This document shows, in pieces, positions 44,392 through 54,189 of a stretch of 64,000 nucleotides of DNA (the first letter of the stretch is position 1; each line of letters begins with the position of its first letter). The notes below the pieces were generated by a model. It did not search any database and was not told the DNA's origin. It saw only the letters and a list, made by a program, of their open reading frames with translations. The position numbers and the translations under genes are program-made. This stretch comes from Ignavibacterium sp. (GTDB lineage: Bacteria > Bacteroidota > Ignavibacteria > Ignavibacteriales > Ignavibacteriaceae): the NCBI GenBank assembly GCA_018335755.1, contig JAGXRK010000012.1, positions 1 through 64,000 on the forward strand. The letters run 5' to 3'.

Positions 44392-45438
44392 ATGCCGCAG
44401 CAAAATGATATAACCAATAAACGAAAAAAAGAACACATTGAGTTGTGTTTAACTAAAAAAGTTGAGTTCAAAGAAAAGACGAACGGTTTTGATAATTATG
44501 AGTTTAAGCATTTTGCACTTACGGAGATTGACATTAAGAAAATTACCTTTTTTACAAGATTTTTTAATAAAAAAATAAATTATCCTTTCCTCATTTCCTG
44601 TATGACTGGCGGAACTTCTGAAGCGGAGAATATTAATTCGCGGCTTGCCGATGTTGCTTCCGGACTGAATATCATACTTGGGGTCGGGAGTCAAAGACAG
44701 GCTCTTGAGGATAAAAAATATCACAATTCCTACAAGGTAATAAGAAGAAAAGCACCTGGTATTCCAATTCTTGGAAATATTGGTGCAGCACAACTAACTA
44801 AAAACACCTCTATTGATCAGATAAAAAGTTTAGCTGATATGATTGAAGCTGATGCTATGGTTGTACATCTTAACCCGGTTCAGGAACTTCTTCAGCCTGA
44901 GGGTGAAATTGAATTTTCAGGACTTAGAAAAAAAATAACTAAATTAGTTAAGGAACTTAGGCTGCCGGTTATTGTTAAAGAAGTGGGTTCCGGTATTTCA
45001 AAAGAGGCAGCCATAATTCTTCTTGATTCCGGAGTGAAGGGTATTGATGTTGCTGGTGCCGGAGGAACAAGTTGGGCTGGTGTTGAATTACTAAGAAGCA
45101 AGAACATTAATGATTCAATATTATGGGATTGGGGTTTGCCCACTTCTTTTTGTATACGGGAAGTTGCATCATTAAAGAAAAAATTTAATTTCACTCTAAT
45201 TGGTTCAGGGGGAATAAACTCAGCTATGGAAATGACTAAAGCATTTGCACTTGGTTCAGATATTACTGCATCTGCAAGAGTAATTTTACAAACATTGATC
45301 AATCAGGGTGAAGAAGATGTTATAAAAATGATAAAAGATTGGTTCAATGTTTTAAGCAAAGTAATGTTTTTAACGGGATCAAAAAATCTTAAAGAATTAA
45401 AGACTAACAAAATATTCAAAAGGGAATCTCTAACTTGA
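44392..45438 (+). CDS. fni: Isopentenyl-diphosphate delta-isomerase type 2
   Basis: A 348-residue FMN- and NADPH-dependent IDI-2 that interconverts IPP and DMAPP. Seen: the N-terminal NKRKKEHIELCL, FLISCMTGGT, LGVGSQRQAL, VHLNPVQELLQPEGE, VKEVGSGISKEAA and the FMN phosphate site IGSGGINSAMEMTKA. It is unrelated in fold to Nudix-type Idi1. Its TGA overlaps the TTG start of the polyprenyl synthase as TTGA, giving direct coupling of isomer supply and chain elongation. Confidence 0.95.
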   Translation: MPQQNDITNKRKKEHIELCLTKKVEFKEKTNGFDNYEFKHFALTEIDIKKITFFTRFFNKKINYPFLISCMTGGTSEAENINSRLADVASGLNIILGVGSQRQALEDKKYHNSYKVIRRKAPGIPILGNIGAAQLTKNTSIDQIKSLADMIEADAMVVHLNPVQELLQPEGEIEFSGLRKKITKLVKELRLPVIVKEVGSGISKEAAIILLDSGVKGIDVAGAGGTSWAGVELLRSKNINDSILWDWGLPTSFCIREVASLKKKFNFTLIGSGGINSAMEMTKAFALGSDITASARVILQTLINQGEEDVIKMIKDWFNVLSKVMFLTGSKNLKELKTNKIFKRESLT

Positions 45439-46430
45439 ATTTAACAGAAATAAAAAATTTCAGCAGGATTTACGAAACTGAAAGAAAAAAAATAGACATA
45501 AAACTTCAGAATCTACTGAAGGGAAGAGAACCACTAATGCTCTATAATCCTGCTTCTTATATTCTGGAAAGCAGCGGTAAAAGATTAAGACCATTATTGG
45601 TTTTGTTTTCAGCTAAAGCTTCAGGAGGTAAATTTAACCAGGTTTATAATGCTGCACTGGCCGTTGAAATGCTTCATAACTTTACCCTCGTTCACGATGA
45701 TATTATGGATAAAGCGGATTTAAGACGAGGACGGGAAACACTTCATAAAAAATATGATATTAATACCGCTATTTTAGCCGGTGATAGTCTTCTTGCTGTG
45801 GCTTATGAATGTCTGTTAAAAGATTGCGATGTTAATGCAAAAAAGGCACTTGCTTCGTTTACTAATGGTTTGATTGAAGTATGCGAGGGTCAAAGTCTTG
45901 ATACAGATTTTGAAACACGAAAAAATGTTTCAATTGATGAGTACATTACGATGATAACAAAGAAAACTGCAATGCTTCTGAAAATGTGCTGTGAGATCGG
46001 TTCATTGCTTGTTGATGCAAATCCCCGTGATATTAAAATACTTTCGGATTATGGACTTAACCTTGGAATTGCATTTCAGATACAGGATGATTTGCTTGAC
46101 ATTATCGGTGATCAGAAAAAATTCGGCAAGAAGGTAGGCGGCGATCTTATTGAAGGGAAAAAGACTTTTTTGTTTTTACGAGCTCTGAATAAATCCAAAG
46201 GAGATAATAAACAAGCTTTACTTCGTGTTATTAGAAACAAAGGTATAAAATCATCTGAGGTAAATAAATATAAAAGAATTTATGAAGAACTGGATGTAAT
46301 TCAGGATGCAAAAAGGGAGATTGAGCTGTATACTAATTCAGCATTAAAAGCAATTAATAAGTTAACTGAAAAGAAAAATATCGGACTATTTTACTGGCTT
46401 GCAGACTCACTAATTAAACGTGATCAATAA
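45435..46430 (+). CDS. Polyprenyl diphosphate synthase
   Basis: A 331-residue trans-prenyltransferase. The first aspartate-rich motif is in LVHDDIMDKADLRRGRETLH, and the second is FQIQDDLLDIIGD followed by GKKVGGDLIEGKKTF. GKRLRPLLV binds the allylic diphosphate. It builds geranyl- to longer polyprenyl diphosphates for quinones, carotenoids or undecaprenyl carriers; chain length cannot be read reliably. The start is TTG overlapping idi2, and the stop overlaps ptsH by one base. Confidence 0.93.
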   Translation: MNLTEIKNFSRIYETERKKIDIKLQNLLKGREPLMLYNPASYILESSGKRLRPLLVLFSAKASGGKFNQVYNAALAVEMLHNFTLVHDDIMDKADLRRGRETLHKKYDINTAILAGDSLLAVAYECLLKDCDVNAKKALASFTNGLIEVCEGQSLDTDFETRKNVSIDEYITMITKKTAMLLKMCCEIGSLLVDANPRDIKILSDYGLNLGIAFQIQDDLLDIIGDQKKFGKKVGGDLIEGKKTFLFLRALNKSKGDNKQALLRVIRNKGIKSSEVNKYKRIYEELDVIQDAKREIELYTNSALKAINKLTEKKNIGLFYWLADSLIKRDQ

Positions 46431-46696
46431 TGATTGAAAAAACAGTTAAAATTATAAATAAAGCAGGTCTGCACACCCGGCCTGCTGCTACAGTTGTTAA
46501 ACTGGCTGCGAAGTATAAATGTGACTTTTTTATTTCGCGTGATGGAATGCATATTAATGGAAAAAGTATTATAGGTGTTATGACATTGGCTGCAGAAATT
46601 GGTTCAGAGTTAACCTTAACTTTTAATGGTGTTGATGAAGGAAAGGCTTCTGAAGAAATAGTTTCTTATTTTGAAAGGGGGTTCGATGAAATATGA
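46430..46696 (+). CDS. ptsH: HPr phosphocarrier protein
   Basis: An 88-residue HPr. His15 in AGLHTRPAA is the residue phosphorylated by EI. Ser46 in NGKSIIGVM lies in a motif like that recognised by HPr kinase, which suggests both metabolic and regulatory phosphorylation. It overlaps the next gene, EI, by 4 bases. No sugar-specific EII component is in the window, so the pair may serve mainly regulatory or EIIA-Man-type partners (inference). Confidence 0.95.
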   Translation: MIEKTVKIINKAGLHTRPAATVVKLAAKYKCDFFISRDGMHINGKSIIGVMTLAAEIGSELTLTFNGVDEGKASEEIVSYFERGFDEI

Positions 46697-48459
46697 AATC
46701 ATTTAAAGAAATTTACCGCGAAGCTGAAAATAAAATTGCCGGATTAGCTGCTGCCCCGGGAATTGTTATTGGCAGAGCACATCTTTTTACTAAAGAAAAA
46801 GTTGAAATAAATAAATCGGAAATAACGGATATTGATCAAGCCATAAATAACCTTGATGAAGCTGTAGAAAAATCTAAAAAGGAATTAAATAAGATTTTTT
46901 CAATAGCCCGTGAAAAGATGGATGAAAAAAGAGCTGGTATTTTTGAAGCGCAGCTTATGATACTTGATGATCCTATACTTTTTGGAAATATTAAAGACAG
47001 GATTAAAACTGAAAAAATTCAGCCTGAGTATATTGTTTCGGATGAAATTTCAAAGTACCAGGAACTGATGATAATATCAAGCGAATCTTATCTTAAAGAA
47101 AGAGCTCTTGACATTGAAGATATTAAATTCCGGATTATCAGAAATCTTCAGAAAAAAAGATGGCAGTCGAGGATAGAAAAAGAAATGATTGTTATAAGTG
47201 AGTCGCTTACTCCTGCTGATACACTTCTATTTTCAAGAGTTGATACGCTTGCTTTTGTTACAGATCACGGAGGATTAACATCTCACGCAGCAATTATTTC
47301 AAGATCTTTGAACATTCCGGCTGTTGTTGGTACCCATAATGCTTCCAAAATGATTGAAGACGGGCAATCAATCATTGTTGATGGATTTCACGGTTATATA
47401 ATAACATCTCCTTCAGAAGAGCAAATCGAATTTTTCAAGTACAAACAGGAGCGTCTGAAACAACTTCAGGTTGATCTCAAAGAATTCAAAGAAAAGCCCG
47501 CCATAACTACTGATGGTAGAACTATTAATCTTGAAGCAAATGTTGATGTTACCGGTGAAATTGATGTTGTTATTACCAGCGGTGCAAAAGGTATTGGACT
47601 CTACAGGTCAGAACAAATACTTGATGAACTTGGTGAATATCCTAACGAAGAAGAACAGACTAACATTTACTCAAAACTTGCATCAAGGATGTATCCGGAT
47701 TTTTGTACAATACGTGCTTTTGATATTGGGGGCGACAAGTTCAGACTCTTTGATTACAGAGAGCCGAATCCCTTTTTAGGTTTACGCGGGGTCAGGTTTC
47801 TTCTTGAAAATAAAAGTCTTTTTAAGACTCAGATTAGAGCTGTACTCAAAGCCAGTGCTACTAAAAATATTAAATTTATGATTCCTATGATCTCTACAAT
47901 TGAGGAAATATGGGAAACAAAAAAGTTAATAACTGAATGCAAGGCTGAACTCAGAAAAGAAAAATTAGAATTTGATGATAAAATCAAATTAGGTATAATG
48001 ATCGAAGTTCCTTCAGCAGCAATTATGACAAGAGAACTGGCTGCAGAAGTAGATTTTATAAGTATTGGAACCAATGATTTAATTCAATATATGATGGCTG
48101 TTGACAGAGGTAACGACCTTGTATCTAATTTGTACCAGGAATTCAGTCCAGTAAATATCAGAACCATTTATCATATTGTGCAGGAGGCAAAGCTTCAAAA
48201 AGTGCCTGTGAGTTTGTGTGGAGAAATGGCCGCTGATACATTAGCCATTCCATTGCTTGTTGGATTGGGGTTGGAAACATTAAGTATTTCTGCTGCAACA
48301 ATTCTTTATGCTAAAAAAATAATTAACAGTTTCAGTTACGAACTTGCAAAAAAATTAGCTGATGATTGCGTGGCTAGTAAAACAGAAAAAGAAATTCAGG
48401 ATAAAGTTGTTAAATTCTTTGAAGAAAATAATATCACAAGAACAAGGAACATTATTTAA
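46693..48459 (+). CDS. ptsI: Phosphoenolpyruvate-protein phosphotransferase (PTS enzyme I)
   Basis: A 588-residue EI. The N-terminal HPr-binding helical domain precedes the phosphohistidine domain, where GGLTSHAAIISRS contains His198, and a PEP-binding TIM barrel with GIGLYRSEQ, IRAFDIGGDK, MIPMIS and FISIGTNDLIQY. It transfers phosphate from PEP to HPr. It is coupled to ptsH by ATGA and followed 2 bases later by the PGI/PMI gene, placing PTS phosphotransfer next to central sugar metabolism. Confidence 0.97.
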   Translation: MKSFKEIYREAENKIAGLAAAPGIVIGRAHLFTKEKVEINKSEITDIDQAINNLDEAVEKSKKELNKIFSIAREKMDEKRAGIFEAQLMILDDPILFGNIKDRIKTEKIQPEYIVSDEISKYQELMIISSESYLKERALDIEDIKFRIIRNLQKKRWQSRIEKEMIVISESLTPADTLLFSRVDTLAFVTDHGGLTSHAAIISRSLNIPAVVGTHNASKMIEDGQSIIVDGFHGYIITSPSEEQIEFFKYKQERLKQLQVDLKEFKEKPAITTDGRTINLEANVDVTGEIDVVITSGAKGIGLYRSEQILDELGEYPNEEEQTNIYSKLASRMYPDFCTIRAFDIGGDKFRLFDYREPNPFLGLRGVRFLLENKSLFKTQIRAVLKASATKNIKFMIPMISTIEEIWETKKLITECKAELRKEKLEFDDKIKLGIMIEVPSAAIMTRELAAEVDFISIGTNDLIQYMMAVDRGNDLVSNLYQEFSPVNIRTIYHIVQEAKLQKVPVSLCGEMAADTLAIPLLVGLGLETLSISAATILYAKKIINSFSYELAKKLADDCVASKTEKEIQDKVVKFFEENNITRTRNII

Positions 48460-48461
48460 GA

Positions 48462-49493
48462 ATGAAAATACAGGAATATGTTAAAAAGTACGATCCTCAA
48501 AATCAATTTGATGTTCTGATAAATATCTGGAAACAGATTGAGTTTGCACTTAACAATAAATATGATGTTGATGAGCTTAATCAAAAAAAGTTTACTAATC
48601 TAGTTTTAACTGGTCTTGGCGGATCTGCAATAAGCGGTGATCTCTTAAGAAACTACCTTCATAATGAAATTAAAGTACCATTTATTGTAAACAGAAATTA
48701 TTCGCTTCCGTCATTTGCAGATGAAAATACATTATTAATTGTCTCTTCTTATTCCGGTAATACAGAAGAAACAATATCTGTATTAAATCAGGCAATCAAA
48801 GCTAAATGTTCCATACTTGTTTTAACTACCGGTGGAGAAGCAGAAAAGATTGCGTTCTCTCATAAACTTCCAGTGATAAAACTTCAAAAAGGGTTTCAGC
48901 CAAGATATGCACTGGGTTTAAGTTTCTTTTCGCTACTTATTGCACTCGATAAAATTGGTGTTATTTCTAATCAGAAAAGTGAAATTGAAGAAGTCTTAAC
49001 AATTTGGAAAAAGAAGGCATCTGAGTATTCAAGTGAAAATAATATGGCTTTTTCTCTTGCAGAACGCATGATTGGTTTTATTCCGGTTATATATTCTATT
49101 TCAGAATTAACTTCTGCTGCAGGATACAGGTTCAAATGCCAGCTAAATGAAAATTCAAAGCTTCATGCATTCCATCACGAAATTCCTGAAATGAATCACA
49201 ATGAAATTATAGGCTGGGAAACATATCAGGAGAAATCGTTTCCGGTAAAAGTTATTTATCTTCTTGATGAGAATTGTCACCCTCAAATTAAAAAACGATT
49301 TCAATTTATGAGCGAAATTCTATGTGAAAATAAAATTGATGTTATTGCATTGAACAGCAGTGAAAAAAGTTTTAAGGCAAGATTAATGGATTTAATTTAT
49401 TTGTGTGATTGGATAACTTTTTATATAGCGGTACAAAGAGGTTATGATCCCAGTGAAATCGATAATATCAATAAACTTAAAGAGCGACTTTAA
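48462..49493 (+). CDS. Bifunctional phosphoglucose/phosphomannose isomerase
   Basis: A 343-residue member of the archaeal-type PGI/PMI family with two SIS domains. LTGLGGSAISGDLLRN and IVSSYSGNTEETIS bind the sugar phosphate. HAFHHEIPEMNHNEIIGWE carries the catalytic His and Glu region. It links glucose 6-, fructose 6- and mannose 6-phosphate and so supplies both glycolysis and mannose-derived surface sugars. It sits in the run after ptsHI. Confidence 0.93.
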   Translation: MKIQEYVKKYDPQNQFDVLINIWKQIEFALNNKYDVDELNQKKFTNLVLTGLGGSAISGDLLRNYLHNEIKVPFIVNRNYSLPSFADENTLLIVSSYSGNTEETISVLNQAIKAKCSILVLTTGGEAEKIAFSHKLPVIKLQKGFQPRYALGLSFFSLLIALDKIGVISNQKSEIEEVLTIWKKKASEYSSENNMAFSLAERMIGFIPVIYSISELTSAAGYRFKCQLNENSKLHAFHHEIPEMNHNEIIGWETYQEKSFPVKVIYLLDENCHPQIKKRFQFMSEILCENKIDVIALNSSEKSFKARLMDLIYLCDWITFYIAVQRGYDPSEIDNINKLKERL

Positions 49494-52341
49494 TAAGCCC
49501 TTTTTTCATTCTATCTATTTGAAATTGATAAAGCATTCCATATCTGCTTTGATCATTTTATTCTTATTTGCTGAATTGACTTCGGCACAATTTTATTACT
49601 TTGGCAGAAATAAAGTTCAATATGAGGATTTTGATTGGAAAGTTCTTCGCACCAAGCATTTTAATATTTATTATTATGGTGAAATGGAAAAGATTGCTGA
49701 GATTGGTGCATTTTACGCCGAAGAAATTTATGACGAACTTAAAGTAAAACTTAACCACGTTGTAACAAGAAAAATTCCTCTGATTTTTTATAATACTTCC
49801 TTACATTTTCAACAGACAAATGTTACTCCGGGATTAATACCTGAGGGTGTCGGAGGTTTTTTCGAATTTTTAAAGGGCAGAGTTGTCCTTCCATCAACAG
49901 GTTCCTTGAAAGATTTCAGACATGTTATTCGTCACGAACTTGTTCACGTATTTATGACTAACAAAATTTACCGTACCCTATCAGATCATAGGATTCCACC
50001 TGATATGCTTCCGCCTTTGTGGTTTGTTGAAGGGTTGGCAGAATATCTTTCTACTGAAGTTGATGCACAAGCTGAGATGGTTATGCGAGATGCAGTGATC
50101 AATAATTATTTTGTCGGTTTGAAAGATATATTTGCTATATATGGTTCATTTTTAATGTATAAAGAAGGTCAGAGTTTCCTGGAATTTGTTGCTGAAAATT
50201 ACGGCGAAGAAAAAGTTCTTTTAATGGTTGAAAATTTCTGGATGTATAAAAATTTCAATGATCTTCTTGAATATCTTCTTGGAAAGAAGATAGAAGAAAT
50301 TGATAATGAATGGATCTATTGGTTAAGAAAAAAATATTATCCTCTGTTCAGTAAAAAACTACCTCATAATATAGGAGCAAAAAAAATAACAGAAAAAGGT
50401 TTTTACTTCAGTCCGGTGCATCATAGGATAGATGGTAAAGATTATATTTATACATCAGCAAACAGCGATGGTTATTCATCTATTTACAGAATAGAACTTG
50501 ATGAAAAACTTAACCCGAAAGGGAGTCCTGAACTTGTATTAAGAGGAGAAAAGTCTGATGAACTTGAATCATTCCATTTATTTCAATCAGCAATTGATAT
50601 ATCCAACTCCGGTTTACTTGCTTTAGTTACAAAAAGCGGTCCGACAGATGTAATACATTTTCTGAATACGTCAACCCAAGAATTAACTAAAACTTTTCAA
50701 CGCGATTATCTCATTTCTATCAGTTCACCTAAATTTTATTCAAATGGTGCGCTCATTACATTTCACGCGGTTGATCAGAAAGGATTCAGTGATATTTATG
50801 TTTACGATTTGATTAATGATTCATTAGAGAGACTTACTAACGATTATTATGATGATAAAGATCCTTCATTCAGCAATGACGATGAAATTATATTTGTGTC
50901 TGACAGGACTGCCGGTAAAATTGAAAGAAAGTATAATTTATTTTCAATTAATGTATCTTCAAAAAAAATATCTTATCTCACTTACCTTGATGCAAATTTA
51001 TCATCACCAATTTTATCTCCCGAAAAAAATGAAATCTATTTTACTGCAGATATTGATGGCGTAAGAAATATCTGGAAAATGGATTATTCACCTAATTCGG
51101 AAAGAACAGATACGGTTAGACGGGTTTCAAGGTTTTTTACGAGTTCCTTTGACCAAAGATTTCTTGGGAAAGATAAACTTATTTTTACCGGCTTTGAGAA
51201 TTTTTCATTCCAGATTTACTTAAAGGACCTTAATAAACTCTCACAAGATTCTACATTAACCATTGCAATGGATTTTGATGGTGCCGGCGGAAAATGGTAT
51301 CATAAGTTATTAACAGCAGATCACGAGAGAGAAAAACTGGTTTATGAAAAAGAATACACACTGGATTACGCTGCAGGTGTAGTTTCAACCGACCCGGTAT
51401 TTGGAACTCAGGGGGGTGCAATATTTTCATTAAGCGATCTGCTTGGCGATGATAAGTATTTTTTCCTTCTATATAATACTGCAAATGTACAGAGTGATTT
51501 TCTAAAAAGTTTTAACGTAGCAATTGAACGGCTCGATCTCAGTCAACGCGTAAATTATGGTTACGGTGTATTTCATTTTAGCGGAAGAAGATATGATATT
51601 CGTGATTCGGATGAATATTACTTTGAAAGGATTTTCGGAGGATTTTTCCGCTTCAATTACCCAATTTCAAAATTTCAAAGAATTGAAGCACTTACATCTT
51701 TAGCTAACTCTGATAAAGAAGTTTTTGCTGGTATCAAACAAAGAAAAGCTGTGTTACTAACTAACTCAATCTCGTACGTTCACGATAATTCACTTTGGGG
51801 TCCTTCCGGACCGCTCGATGGCAGCAGATTGCTCTTTCTGCTGGGTTACACCAGCGATATTAAATTCAGCAATGTTAATTATTTCAGTTTAATTGCTGAT
51901 ATAAGATATTATTACAGGATTGCTTTAACAACATCTATTGCCACAAGATTAGGGTTTTTCTACAATGAAGGAAAGGAAGCAAGAAGATATTTTATGGGCG
52001 GAAGCTGGGACCTTAGAGGCTGGCCTCGATGGGCAATAAGAGGGGAAAAAATGTGGCTTTCTTCACTTGAATTCAGGTTCCCTTTAATTGATGCCCTGTA
52101 CGTGAAATTTCCATTTTTTGGGCTTGGATTTTTTGGAATTCGCGGCGCTGCTTTTTTTGATGCTGGTAGTGCATGGGATACTGAATATAAAAGAACTTAC
52201 GGCAGTGTTGGCGGGGGAATTAGATTTAACCTTTTTGGTGTTTTGGTACTGCGTTATGATATTGGTAAAAAAATAGAAAATAATTTTTCAAGTTTTCAAC
52301 CGGGATTATTTTATCAATTCTTTTTTGGATGGGATTTCTGA
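49444..52341 (+). CDS. Gluzincin peptidase / TolB-like propeller / Omp85-like barrel fusion protein
   Basis: A protein of up to 965 residues with three parts. After a signal peptide ending ELTSAQ, residues 60-300 form a peptidase MA-like domain with HELVH (164-168) and downstream WFVEGLAEY supplying a glutamate ligand. Residues about 330-640 hold WD40/TolB-like blades (DPSFSNDDEIIFVSDRTAG). The last 300 residues look like an Omp85/BamA-type barrel: MGGSWDLRGW, LEFRFPL, AFFDAGSAWD, GGGIRFNL. The role is unknown; an outer-membrane-tethered protease or assembly factor is plausible. The start is uncertain: ATG 49444 overlaps PGI/PMI by 50 bases after AAAGAGG, and TTG at 49519 or 49525 would also keep the signal peptide. 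Confidence 0.82.
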   Translation: MIPVKSIISINLKSDFNKPFFHSIYLKLIKHSISALIILFLFAELTSAQFYYFGRNKVQYEDFDWKVLRTKHFNIYYYGEMEKIAEIGAFYAEEIYDELKVKLNHVVTRKIPLIFYNTSLHFQQTNVTPGLIPEGVGGFFEFLKGRVVLPSTGSLKDFRHVIRHELVHVFMTNKIYRTLSDHRIPPDMLPPLWFVEGLAEYLSTEVDAQAEMVMRDAVINNYFVGLKDIFAIYGSFLMYKEGQSFLEFVAENYGEEKVLLMVENFWMYKNFNDLLEYLLGKKIEEIDNEWIYWLRKKYYPLFSKKLPHNIGAKKITEKGFYFSPVHHRIDGKDYIYTSANSDGYSSIYRIELDEKLNPKGSPELVLRGEKSDELESFHLFQSAIDISNSGLLALVTKSGPTDVIHFLNTSTQELTKTFQRDYLISISSPKFYSNGALITFHAVDQKGFSDIYVYDLINDSLERLTNDYYDDKDPSFSNDDEIIFVSDRTAGKIERKYNLFSINVSSKKISYLTYLDANLSSPILSPEKNEIYFTADIDGVRNIWKMDYSPNSERTDTVRRVSRFFTSSFDQRFLGKDKLIFTGFENFSFQIYLKDLNKLSQDSTLTIAMDFDGAGGKWYHKLLTADHEREKLVYEKEYTLDYAAGVVSTDPVFGTQGGAIFSLSDLLGDDKYFFLLYNTANVQSDFLKSFNVAIERLDLSQRVNYGYGVFHFSGRRYDIRDSDEYYFERIFGGFFRFNYPISKFQRIEALTSLANSDKEVFAGIKQRKAVLLTNSISYVHDNSLWGPSGPLDGSRLLFLLGYTSDIKFSNVNYFSLIADIRYYYRIALTTSIATRLGFFYNEGKEARRYFMGGSWDLRGWPRWAIRGEKMWLSSLEFRFPLIDALYVKFPFFGLGFFGIRGAAFFDAGSAWDTEYKRTYGSVGGGIRFNLFGVLVLRYDIGKKIENNFSSFQPGLFYQFFFGWDF

Positions 52342-53486
52342 AAAAACACTTAAACATATTATTGATTTTTTGCTCCTTGTCTTTTTTCAGTGGATGTGCG
52401 AAATCGATCATCAAAATAGTTTATCAAAAGGATGATAACCCTGTTACCATGTTTGCTGAAACAGGCGAGAGGAATTTCTATGTTCCTATTACTATTAGCG
52501 ATTCATTATCCTTAATATGGGAAAGGGATACACATGGAAGTTTTAATAACTCATCTTTTCTTTTTTTCGATTCAACTATAATAGTGCATGATTTGGGCGG
52601 AAGAGTTCACACTTTTAATATTCATACCGGTAAACAGACAGGTGTACTTAAAAATAAAGGATCTGTTTTATCAACTCCCGTTTTAATCAATTATAGTATA
52701 GTCATTCCGCTTGTTCTAACCAATAAAAATAAAACAGAATTGATCTTCTATGATTATTTCAATGGTAAAGAATTAGATTTAGTTGAAATTGATGGAAGGG
52801 TAATTAACCAGTTATTAAAAATTGATGATGATGTCGTTCTGATTACTGAAGAAGGTACTATAAAAAGAATTAACTTAAGAGGTAATGAAAAATGGAACAT
52901 CAGTTTTGATTCCTTTGTCAGATCAAATCCGGCTTATTCAAACGGAAGAATTTATTTTGCTTCAATTGATGGTGAATTCTTTTGTCTTGATGCTGAATCT
53001 TCAAGACTGATTTACCGGAAAAAATTATCTTCTTCATTTAATGGCGGAGTAACAATTAAATCCAACAATGCCTATTTAGCTGATACGGATGGAATTATTT
53101 ATTCGATAAAATTATCAGATGGCGGGATTAACTGGGTATATAATGCAGGTTCAAGAATTCAGATGAACCCTGCATTAGATAATGAAAATCTTTTTATTGG
53201 AAATCTATCCGGAGAAATTTTCTCAATAACTCAAAATACAGGTGCTCTGAACTGGAAAGAAAAATTTAATGGTGCCGTTTTTAACAGCACTCCTTTAATT
53301 ACTGATAATAGAATAATAATTTCAAATCTTTTTAAGTCAGTATTTCTAATAAACAAAACCGATGGTAAGGTAAGCAAAGAAATCAGCCTGAATGAAAGAG
53401 TTAAAATGACTCCTGCAATAAAATGCAATATACTTTTTCTTGGTTACGACAGAGGAACAGTAAGAGCTTATGAAATCGTTAATTAA
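52329..53486 (+). CDS. PQQ-repeat beta-propeller lipoprotein (BamB-like)
   Basis: A 385-residue lipoprotein with a lipobox ending SGC at Cys23. The mature part is a series of PQQ-like blades (WERDTHGSFNN, VRSNPAYSNGRIYFASIDGE, DGGINWVYNAG, TGALNWKEKFNG), the fold of BamB. BamB binds periplasmic domains of the Omp85 protein BamA. Here the gene overlaps an Omp85-like gene by 13 bases, so a similar partnership is plausible, though sequence cannot prove it. It also overlaps the PEGA gene by 17 bases. Confidence 0.85.
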   Translation: MGFLKKHLNILLIFCSLSFFSGCAKSIIKIVYQKDDNPVTMFAETGERNFYVPITISDSLSLIWERDTHGSFNNSSFLFFDSTIIVHDLGGRVHTFNIHTGKQTGVLKNKGSVLSTPVLINYSIVIPLVLTNKNKTELIFYDYFNGKELDLVEIDGRVINQLLKIDDDVVLITEEGTIKRINLRGNEKWNISFDSFVRSNPAYSNGRIYFASIDGEFFCLDAESSRLIYRKKLSSSFNGGVTIKSNNAYLADTDGIIYSIKLSDGGINWVYNAGSRIQMNPALDNENLFIGNLSGEIFSITQNTGALNWKEKFNGAVFNSTPLITDNRIIISNLFKSVFLINKTDGKVSKEISLNERVKMTPAIKCNILFLGYDRGTVRAYEIVN

Positions 53487-54189
53487 AATCATTTTTGTAT
53501 TTGTAACATCCATCTCTGCTTATTCTCAGGATTGTGATTCAAAACTTCTCCTGAAAACAGATATATCAAATTTCAGAGTTTTCATAAATGATTCACTTGA
53601 GTATAAAGATCAATATGAATATCAATTAGAAAAAGGATTTTACAATATTCTGGTTATGGAGGATAGTGACCGGTGGGATGCCGGATCTTTTTCTGATTCT
53701 TTTTTTATTGATTCCTGCGAAACCAAAGAGCTTATTCTGAAGCTAAGCAGTAATGTACTTATTGATTCTGAGCCGCTGGATGTTAAAGTGTTTGCAGGAG
53801 ATTCCTTATTAGGTTATACTCCGATTATTATACCTAAGTATTTTAATACGGTCACACTAAAAAAATTCGGATATTCTGAAAGAGAAATTGTAATTGATCA
53901 ACGGTTTTCAAAAATCAACGCATCATTGGATTTTATCGGAGAAGCAAAAAAAGAAAACTTTTTTGATAAATCCTTATCAAAAGTATTGATTGGTTCATTG
54001 ATAACTCTAGGTGCTGCATCTGCCTACTTTAAATTAAAGGCCGATGATTACTATGATGAATATCTAAGAACTGGAGATGTTAAATACAAAGATCGAACAA
54101 ATGATTACGATTTAGTAAGCGGAGTGACTTTAGGTCTGACCCAAATTAATTTCGGATTTCTTATTTATAAAATATTTTTTGACAATTAA
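53470..54189 (+). CDS. PEGA-domain envelope protein
   Basis: A 239-residue protein with a signal peptide ending SAYSQ. Residues about 95-150 look like a PEGA domain (EPLDVKVFAGDSLLGYTPI, LKKFGYSEREIVID). The C-terminal 70 residues hold a hydrophobic helix (VLIGSLITLGAASAYF) and a second near the end, so it may span or associate with a membrane. PEGA domains are linked to surface-protein and glycan contacts. It overlaps the BamB-like gene and precedes prmC by 3 bases. Confidence 0.72.
   Translation: MKSLIKIIFVFVTSISAYSQDCDSKLLLKTDISNFRVFINDSLEYKDQYEYQLEKGFYNILVMEDSDRWDAGSFSDSFFIDSCETKELILKLSSNVLIDSEPLDVKVFAGDSLLGYTPIIIPKYFNTVTLKKFGYSEREIVIDQRFSKINASLDFIGEAKKENFFDKSLSKVLIGSLITLGAASAYFKLKADDYYDEYLRTGDVKYKDRTNDYDLVSGVTLGLTQINFGFLIYKIFFDN

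Follow-up and report, generated by a model that had tools for sequence, protein, structure and literature searches.

A peptidase-propeller-Omp85 protein with two conserved partner genes in Bacteroidota, a candidate accessory device for outer-membrane assembly or quality control

A gene of Ignavibacterium sp. encodes an Omp85 barrel that lacks POTRA domains and is preceded by a metallopeptidase domain and a TolB-like propeller, and it is followed by genes for a PQQ-type propeller lipoprotein and a PEGA-like protein. This three-gene unit is conserved in most of the Bacteroidota genomes examined nearby and in two MAGs of neighboring phyla. From the sequences, the predicted structures, and analogies to characterized proteins, we tentatively propose, at a little below even probability, that the unit may help to assemble the outer membrane or to control its quality, as an accessory device that has a protease of its own and works beside the housekeeping BAM. 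The fuller claim is less probable: that it would be an undescribed, apparently vertically inherited machine of Bacteroidota for outer-membrane assembly and proteolytic quality control, in which an insertase-type barrel has its own zinc protease and a docked lipoprotein and PEGA protein.

In the best-studied Omp85 machines, POTRA domains receive clients and partners. The proteins described here form a widely conserved Omp85 branch in which POTRA gives way to a TolB-like propeller together with a zinc-protease domain that appears intact, accompanied by two fixed partner genes. If this branch acts in the assembly or turnover of outer-membrane proteins, insertion and proteolytic checking could be joined in one polypeptide, and a quality-control factor would be added for Bacteroidota, the phylum in which the BAM of Flavobacterium johnsoniae was structurally described in 2025.

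Gene Calls, Domains, and Conservation of the Fusion Protein

The window is the whole analyzed stretch of 64,000 nt from Ignavibacterium sp. (GCA_018335755.1, contig JAGXRK010000012.1, positions 1 to 64,000, forward strand). Its three open reading frames of interest lie exactly where an earlier note on this DNA had placed them (Table 1) and overlap by 13 and 17 bases, as stated there. The true start of the fusion protein is probably the in-frame TTG at 49519, the called ATG at 49444 probably being too early. Translation from this TTG begins with a clean SPase I signal peptide, MKLIKHSISALIILFLFAELTSA, which ends in TSA and is followed by Q. Because of this signal peptide and because the orthologs are mostly about 937 to 945 aa long, the protein is probably of 940 aa, and an overlap with the upstream gene is then not needed. 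Residue numbers nevertheless follow the 965-aa call. Upstream of the unit lies a polyprenyl synthetase-HPr-PtsI-phosphoglucose isomerase block (45435 to 49493) that is kept across distant classes.

Table 1. Coordinates of the three genes and of the fusion protein's domains in the window
Feature	Coordinates	Strand	Details
Peptidase-propeller-Omp85 fusion protein	49444..52341	+	965 aa as called; 940 aa from TTG 49519 (probable)
Peptidase MA (gluzincin-like) domain	49774..50352	+	residues ~111-303
TolB-like six-bladed beta-propeller	50377..51279	+	residues ~312-612; 24 strands in model
16-strand Omp85 barrel	51358..52338	+	residues 639-965; L6 GGSWDLRGW 852-860; C-terminal aromatic strand
PQQ-type propeller lipoprotein	52329..53486	+	385 aa
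PEGA-like protein	53470..54189	+	239 aa

All three domains that had been read from the letters, namely an HELVH gluzincin domain, TolB/WD40-like blades, and an Omp85-like barrel with an LRGW motif, were recovered by profile searches and structure prediction. The Pfam matches were Peptidase_MA_2 at residues 111-294 (35.5 bits; cutoff, 32.4), PD40 at 461-494 (21.1 bits; cutoff, 20.9), and Omp85 (PF01103) at 732-945 (41.9 bits; cutoff, 24), and NCBIfam gave a TolB-type propeller match at 426-555. Pfam detected no POTRA domain in the fusion protein, and the genome's PF07244 matches all fall on contigs other than its own (C12). An AlphaFold2 model with 45 orthologs as input reached a mean pLDDT of 80.6 and a pTM of 0.72. 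It has a helical peptidase domain, with the HExxH motif on helix 155-181 and the glutamate on helix 192-203, followed by 24 propeller strands at 320-608, read as six blades, and sixteen barrel strands between 639 and 963. Searched against the PDB with Foldseek, the model matched TolB (E value, 2.5e-11) and BamA barrels, the latter with E values between about 1e-9 and 1e-10 and target-length TM-scores of at most 0.59. By its sixteen modeled strands and its BamA matches, the barrel is thus of the Omp85 type, and the PD40 and TolB profiles, the model, and Foldseek agree in placing a TolB-like propeller directly before it.

The zinc-site motif is intact: H164, E165, and H168 of the HExxH motif and the putative downstream glutamate ligand, E196 on a later predicted helix, are all present. 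We take WFVEGLAE, which contains E196, to resemble the third-ligand region of M1 gluzincins. Across 45 orthologs with identity down to 40%, these four residues and E200 (HELVH...WFVEGLAE) are invariant, and 43 of the 45 match Peptidase_MA_2. In loop L6 of the same set, G852 to D856 (GGSWD) and R858 are invariant, and L857 and G859 are each conserved in >90%. Mean identity to the fusion protein is 0.68 in the peptidase domain, 0.67 in the barrel, 0.84 in loop L6, and 0.45 in the propeller. Since the peptidase domain is conserved like the barrel and its site is invariant, the zinc site is probably kept under selection; such a pattern would not be that of a decaying protease domain. A chance open reading frame or frame artifact was rejected, as orthologs are conserved down to the same 40% identity with reading frames mostly intact, and as the gene order recurs at 53 of 60 loci.

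The Three-Gene Unit and Its Partner Proteins

Of 60 nonredundant ortholog loci that extend at least 2.6 kb downstream, part of which also served for the partner profiles, 53 keep the order of barrel protein, propeller lipoprotein, and PEGA protein. The adjacency that the earlier note had pointed out thus extends to other genomes, including places where the upstream genes differ, and it reaches distant classes, one Calditrichota MAG, and one KSB1 MAG. Of the three outcomes that the note had named as refuting its reading, two, a barrel of another type and a lack of conserved adjacency, were thus not observed. Twenty loci were fetched after the profiles had been built, although one (L127) is the same record as a locus that served in them (L059); both partners are present at 15, the PEGA protein alone at 2, and neither at 3. 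Distant loci with the barrel protein and neither partner gene downstream are L125, L128, and L135, and further ortholog loci lack one of the two. The partners may therefore not be strictly required.

The upstream block adk-ispB-HPr-ptsI-pgi is itself old and widely kept, so adjacency on that side means little, and general synteny could account for some of the adjacency. At least four loci keep the unit intact away from ptsI and pgi, both of which are absent from the fetched stretch by which these loci were judged: L052 (the Calditrichota MAG), L053 (the KSB1 MAG), L137, and L138. General synteny as the sole explanation is thus partly rejected, since the downstream pair stays with the barrel gene away from that block. 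In the 13-base overlap, the end of the barrel protein (GWDF-stop) is read across the start of the lipoprotein (MGFL). An overlap of exactly this length recurs at many loci, including most Ignavibacteria loci, which suggests translational coupling of the two genes.

On a broader scale, of 297 genomes drawn from across the phylum, 289 matched the family profile. About 70 of these carry the window type, with scores from about 980 bits up; a paralog of about 1,050 to 1,120 aa scores about 350 to 400 bits, and many more genomes have weak matches alone. Neighborhood and distribution bear on the idea that the unit serves secretion or surface display, with the Omp85 barrel exporting particular lipoproteins or proteins and the peptidase trimming the passenger. 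Barrels such as TpsB/FhaC and the Slam-like proteins do export particular proteins or lipoproteins. The 2014 Omp85 survey credits Omp85/TpsB barrels with protein translocation (PMC4104836), and the kept peptidase site would suit a trimming role. However, a variable passenger gene is not recurrently linked to these loci, the neighbors being either the two envelope proteins again or housekeeping genes. A match to the fusion protein was found in all 59 of the related genomes searched, and the family is old, whereas typical export systems are patchy. We consider export unlikely.

The lipoprotein matches PQQ_2 with 79.9 bits (cutoff, 27.6), and its lipobox cysteine, Cys23, is invariant among 25 orthologs. 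BamB structures are among its structural matches, and designed and other PQQ propellers outscore them. On the BamB equivalog model TIGR03300 it scores 115.7 bits, below the cutoff of 285.2, by which we rejected its being a true BamB. BamB of Escherichia coli uses the POTRA surface of BamA, a surface that the adjacent barrel, without POTRA, cannot offer. What had been called a BamB-like protein is accordingly a PQQ-propeller lipoprotein at the level of the fold; the closer equivalence fails at both the equivalog cutoff and the partner barrel. The remaining PQQ_2 matches in the genome all lie in open frames of at least 615 aa, so a second stand-alone protein of BamB size is not apparent there.

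The window's own PEGA-like protein reaches 12.2 bits on the PEGA profile (cutoff, 20.8), and 19 of 24 orthologs match that profile, with a best E value of 1.1e-15. Its model shows a signal helix, what we count as two beta-sandwich domains, and, at the C terminus, a pair of helices of about 34 residues each; Foldseek returned no informative relative of this model. Both helices (168-201 and 204-238) contain hydrophobic stretches and are conserved across orthologs, and we read the predicted hairpin as a membrane anchor, probably in the inner membrane.

Such an anchor would also suit an envelope tether in the manner of Tol-Pal, where the propellers and the PEGA protein would bridge outer membrane, wall, and inner membrane, with a structural or regulatory role left to the peptidase. 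TolB is the closest relative of the fusion protein's propeller, and no TolB above the equivalog cutoff was found in the genome, though it has many TolB-like propellers. That same abundance of TolB-like sequence weakens the point, and the invariance of HExxH and E196 speaks for a catalytic site that has been retained. A tether is, in our judgment, improbable.

The Paralog and Other Omp85 Proteins of the Genome

The window's genome also encodes a deep paralog of 1052 aa with the same peptidase-propeller-Omp85 plan. In a tree of 35 sequences, the window type and the paralog type are split by a branch with 100/100 support, and among the paralog rows L109 stands on a very long branch. Neither the lipoprotein gene nor the PEGA gene was found at any of the eight paralog loci, so the partners accompany the window-type protein rather than the domain architecture in general.

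On contig C45, rnr and a 1492-aa TamB-like gene lie immediately upstream of the paralog, in a stretch (G000:C45:21372-43000; L104, L144) that also contains bamA, two skp-like genes, and lpx genes (the skp and lpx names come from a reading of the sequences). This setting points the family to outer-membrane biogenesis. With a similar layout of paralog and TamB-like gene at four other paralog loci, it also lends something to a TAM-type role in lipid transport, in which the fusion protein would stand in for TamA, a TamB/AsmA-like partner would help deliver lipids to the outer membrane, with the propellers as docking parts. The TamB assignment is weak, however, at 51.5 bits against a cutoff of 825 and with PF04357 not found, the window's own unit has no TamB-like neighbor, and the peptidase has no obvious place in the model; we think lipid transport a poor prospect.

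The genome's BamA is a separate protein with four POTRA repeats (TIGR03303, 411.8 bits; cutoff, 297.15), and a BamD-like protein and further POTRA-Omp85 proteins are encoded as well. The fusion protein was therefore rejected as the housekeeping BamA, and with a true BamA elsewhere in the genome, the three-gene unit would be an extra machine. The earlier suggestion of a self-contained assembly machine is not borne out, given that the genome keeps both this BamA and the BamD-like protein. A patatin-POTRA-Omp85 (PlpD-like) protein is encoded in the same genome (L147:1759-4470; G000:C51), which has in total three Omp85 proteins with N-terminal enzyme domains.

Proposed Mechanism and Comparison with Known Systems

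For the accessory assembly or quality-control device that we favor, we infer that the three products may form one periplasm-facing complex alongside BAM. The Omp85 barrel would sit in the outer membrane, with the TolB-like propeller and the zinc peptidase below it in the periplasm, at the place of POTRA in BamA and TamA. A second docking surface could come from the propeller of the lipoprotein, which would be anchored in the outer membrane, and the PEGA protein, inserted by its C-terminal pair of helices (most likely into the inner membrane), might connect the complex with the wall or inner membrane. An outer-membrane protein or a lipoprotein, as the client, would be received by the propellers and then offered to the barrel seam, and the peptidase would cut it if it stalled or needed trimming, as BepA does for LptD.

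BamA and BamB of E. coli resemble the proteins of the unit in their Omp85 barrel with an L6 motif of the form [V/L]RG[F/Y/W] and in their PQQ-propeller lipoprotein, respectively. They differ in that the fusion protein has no POTRA, the lipoprotein falls well short of the BamB equivalog cutoff, and the genome has its own BamA. The proposed parallel to BepA, a zinc peptidase that acts on LptD at the BAM complex in E. coli (PMC8423444), lies in the processing of outer-membrane proteins during barrel assembly; BepA, however, is a separate periplasmic peptidase of family M48 without a barrel fusion. The F. johnsoniae BAM structure of 2025, BamADGHMP, comes from the same phylum, and the L6 motif of its BamA is LRGY, compared with LRGW in the fusion protein (PMC12611786). 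Its partners are BamG, BamH, BamM, and BamP, the words propeller and peptidase are absent from the paper's text, and no such subunit is mentioned there; we counted these other partners against the accessory-assembly reading. PlpD, a patatin-Omp85 protein, shares with the fusion protein an N-terminal enzyme domain on an Omp85 barrel, and that enzymatic domain stays periplasmic (PMC11116518). It differs in combining a lipase with POTRA, where the fusion protein combines a metallopeptidase with a propeller.

The closest described relative, and the sole direct match in a literature search for the peptidase-propeller-Omp85 combination, is the WD40-Omp85 subfamily of the 2014 survey (Heinz and Lithgow 2014, PMC4104836). 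The survey's "Metallo" Omp85 class was rejected as a counterpart because it is defined by PF00149, a different domain (PMC4104836). WD40-Omp85 proteins belong to a group without POTRA and, like the fusion protein, carry a TolB-like propeller ahead of the Omp85 barrel, which the authors found reminiscent of a fusion of BamA and BamB (PMC4104836). A peptidase domain, a propeller lipoprotein encoded separately, and a PEGA partner do not appear in the text consulted (PMC4104836), and as far as could be searched, neither the peptidase domain nor the fixed three-gene unit has been described. The earlier note's statement that no system with this layout had been described was thus too strong: the combination of TolB propeller and Omp85 barrel is already a named subfamily, of which the present protein is probably a variant.
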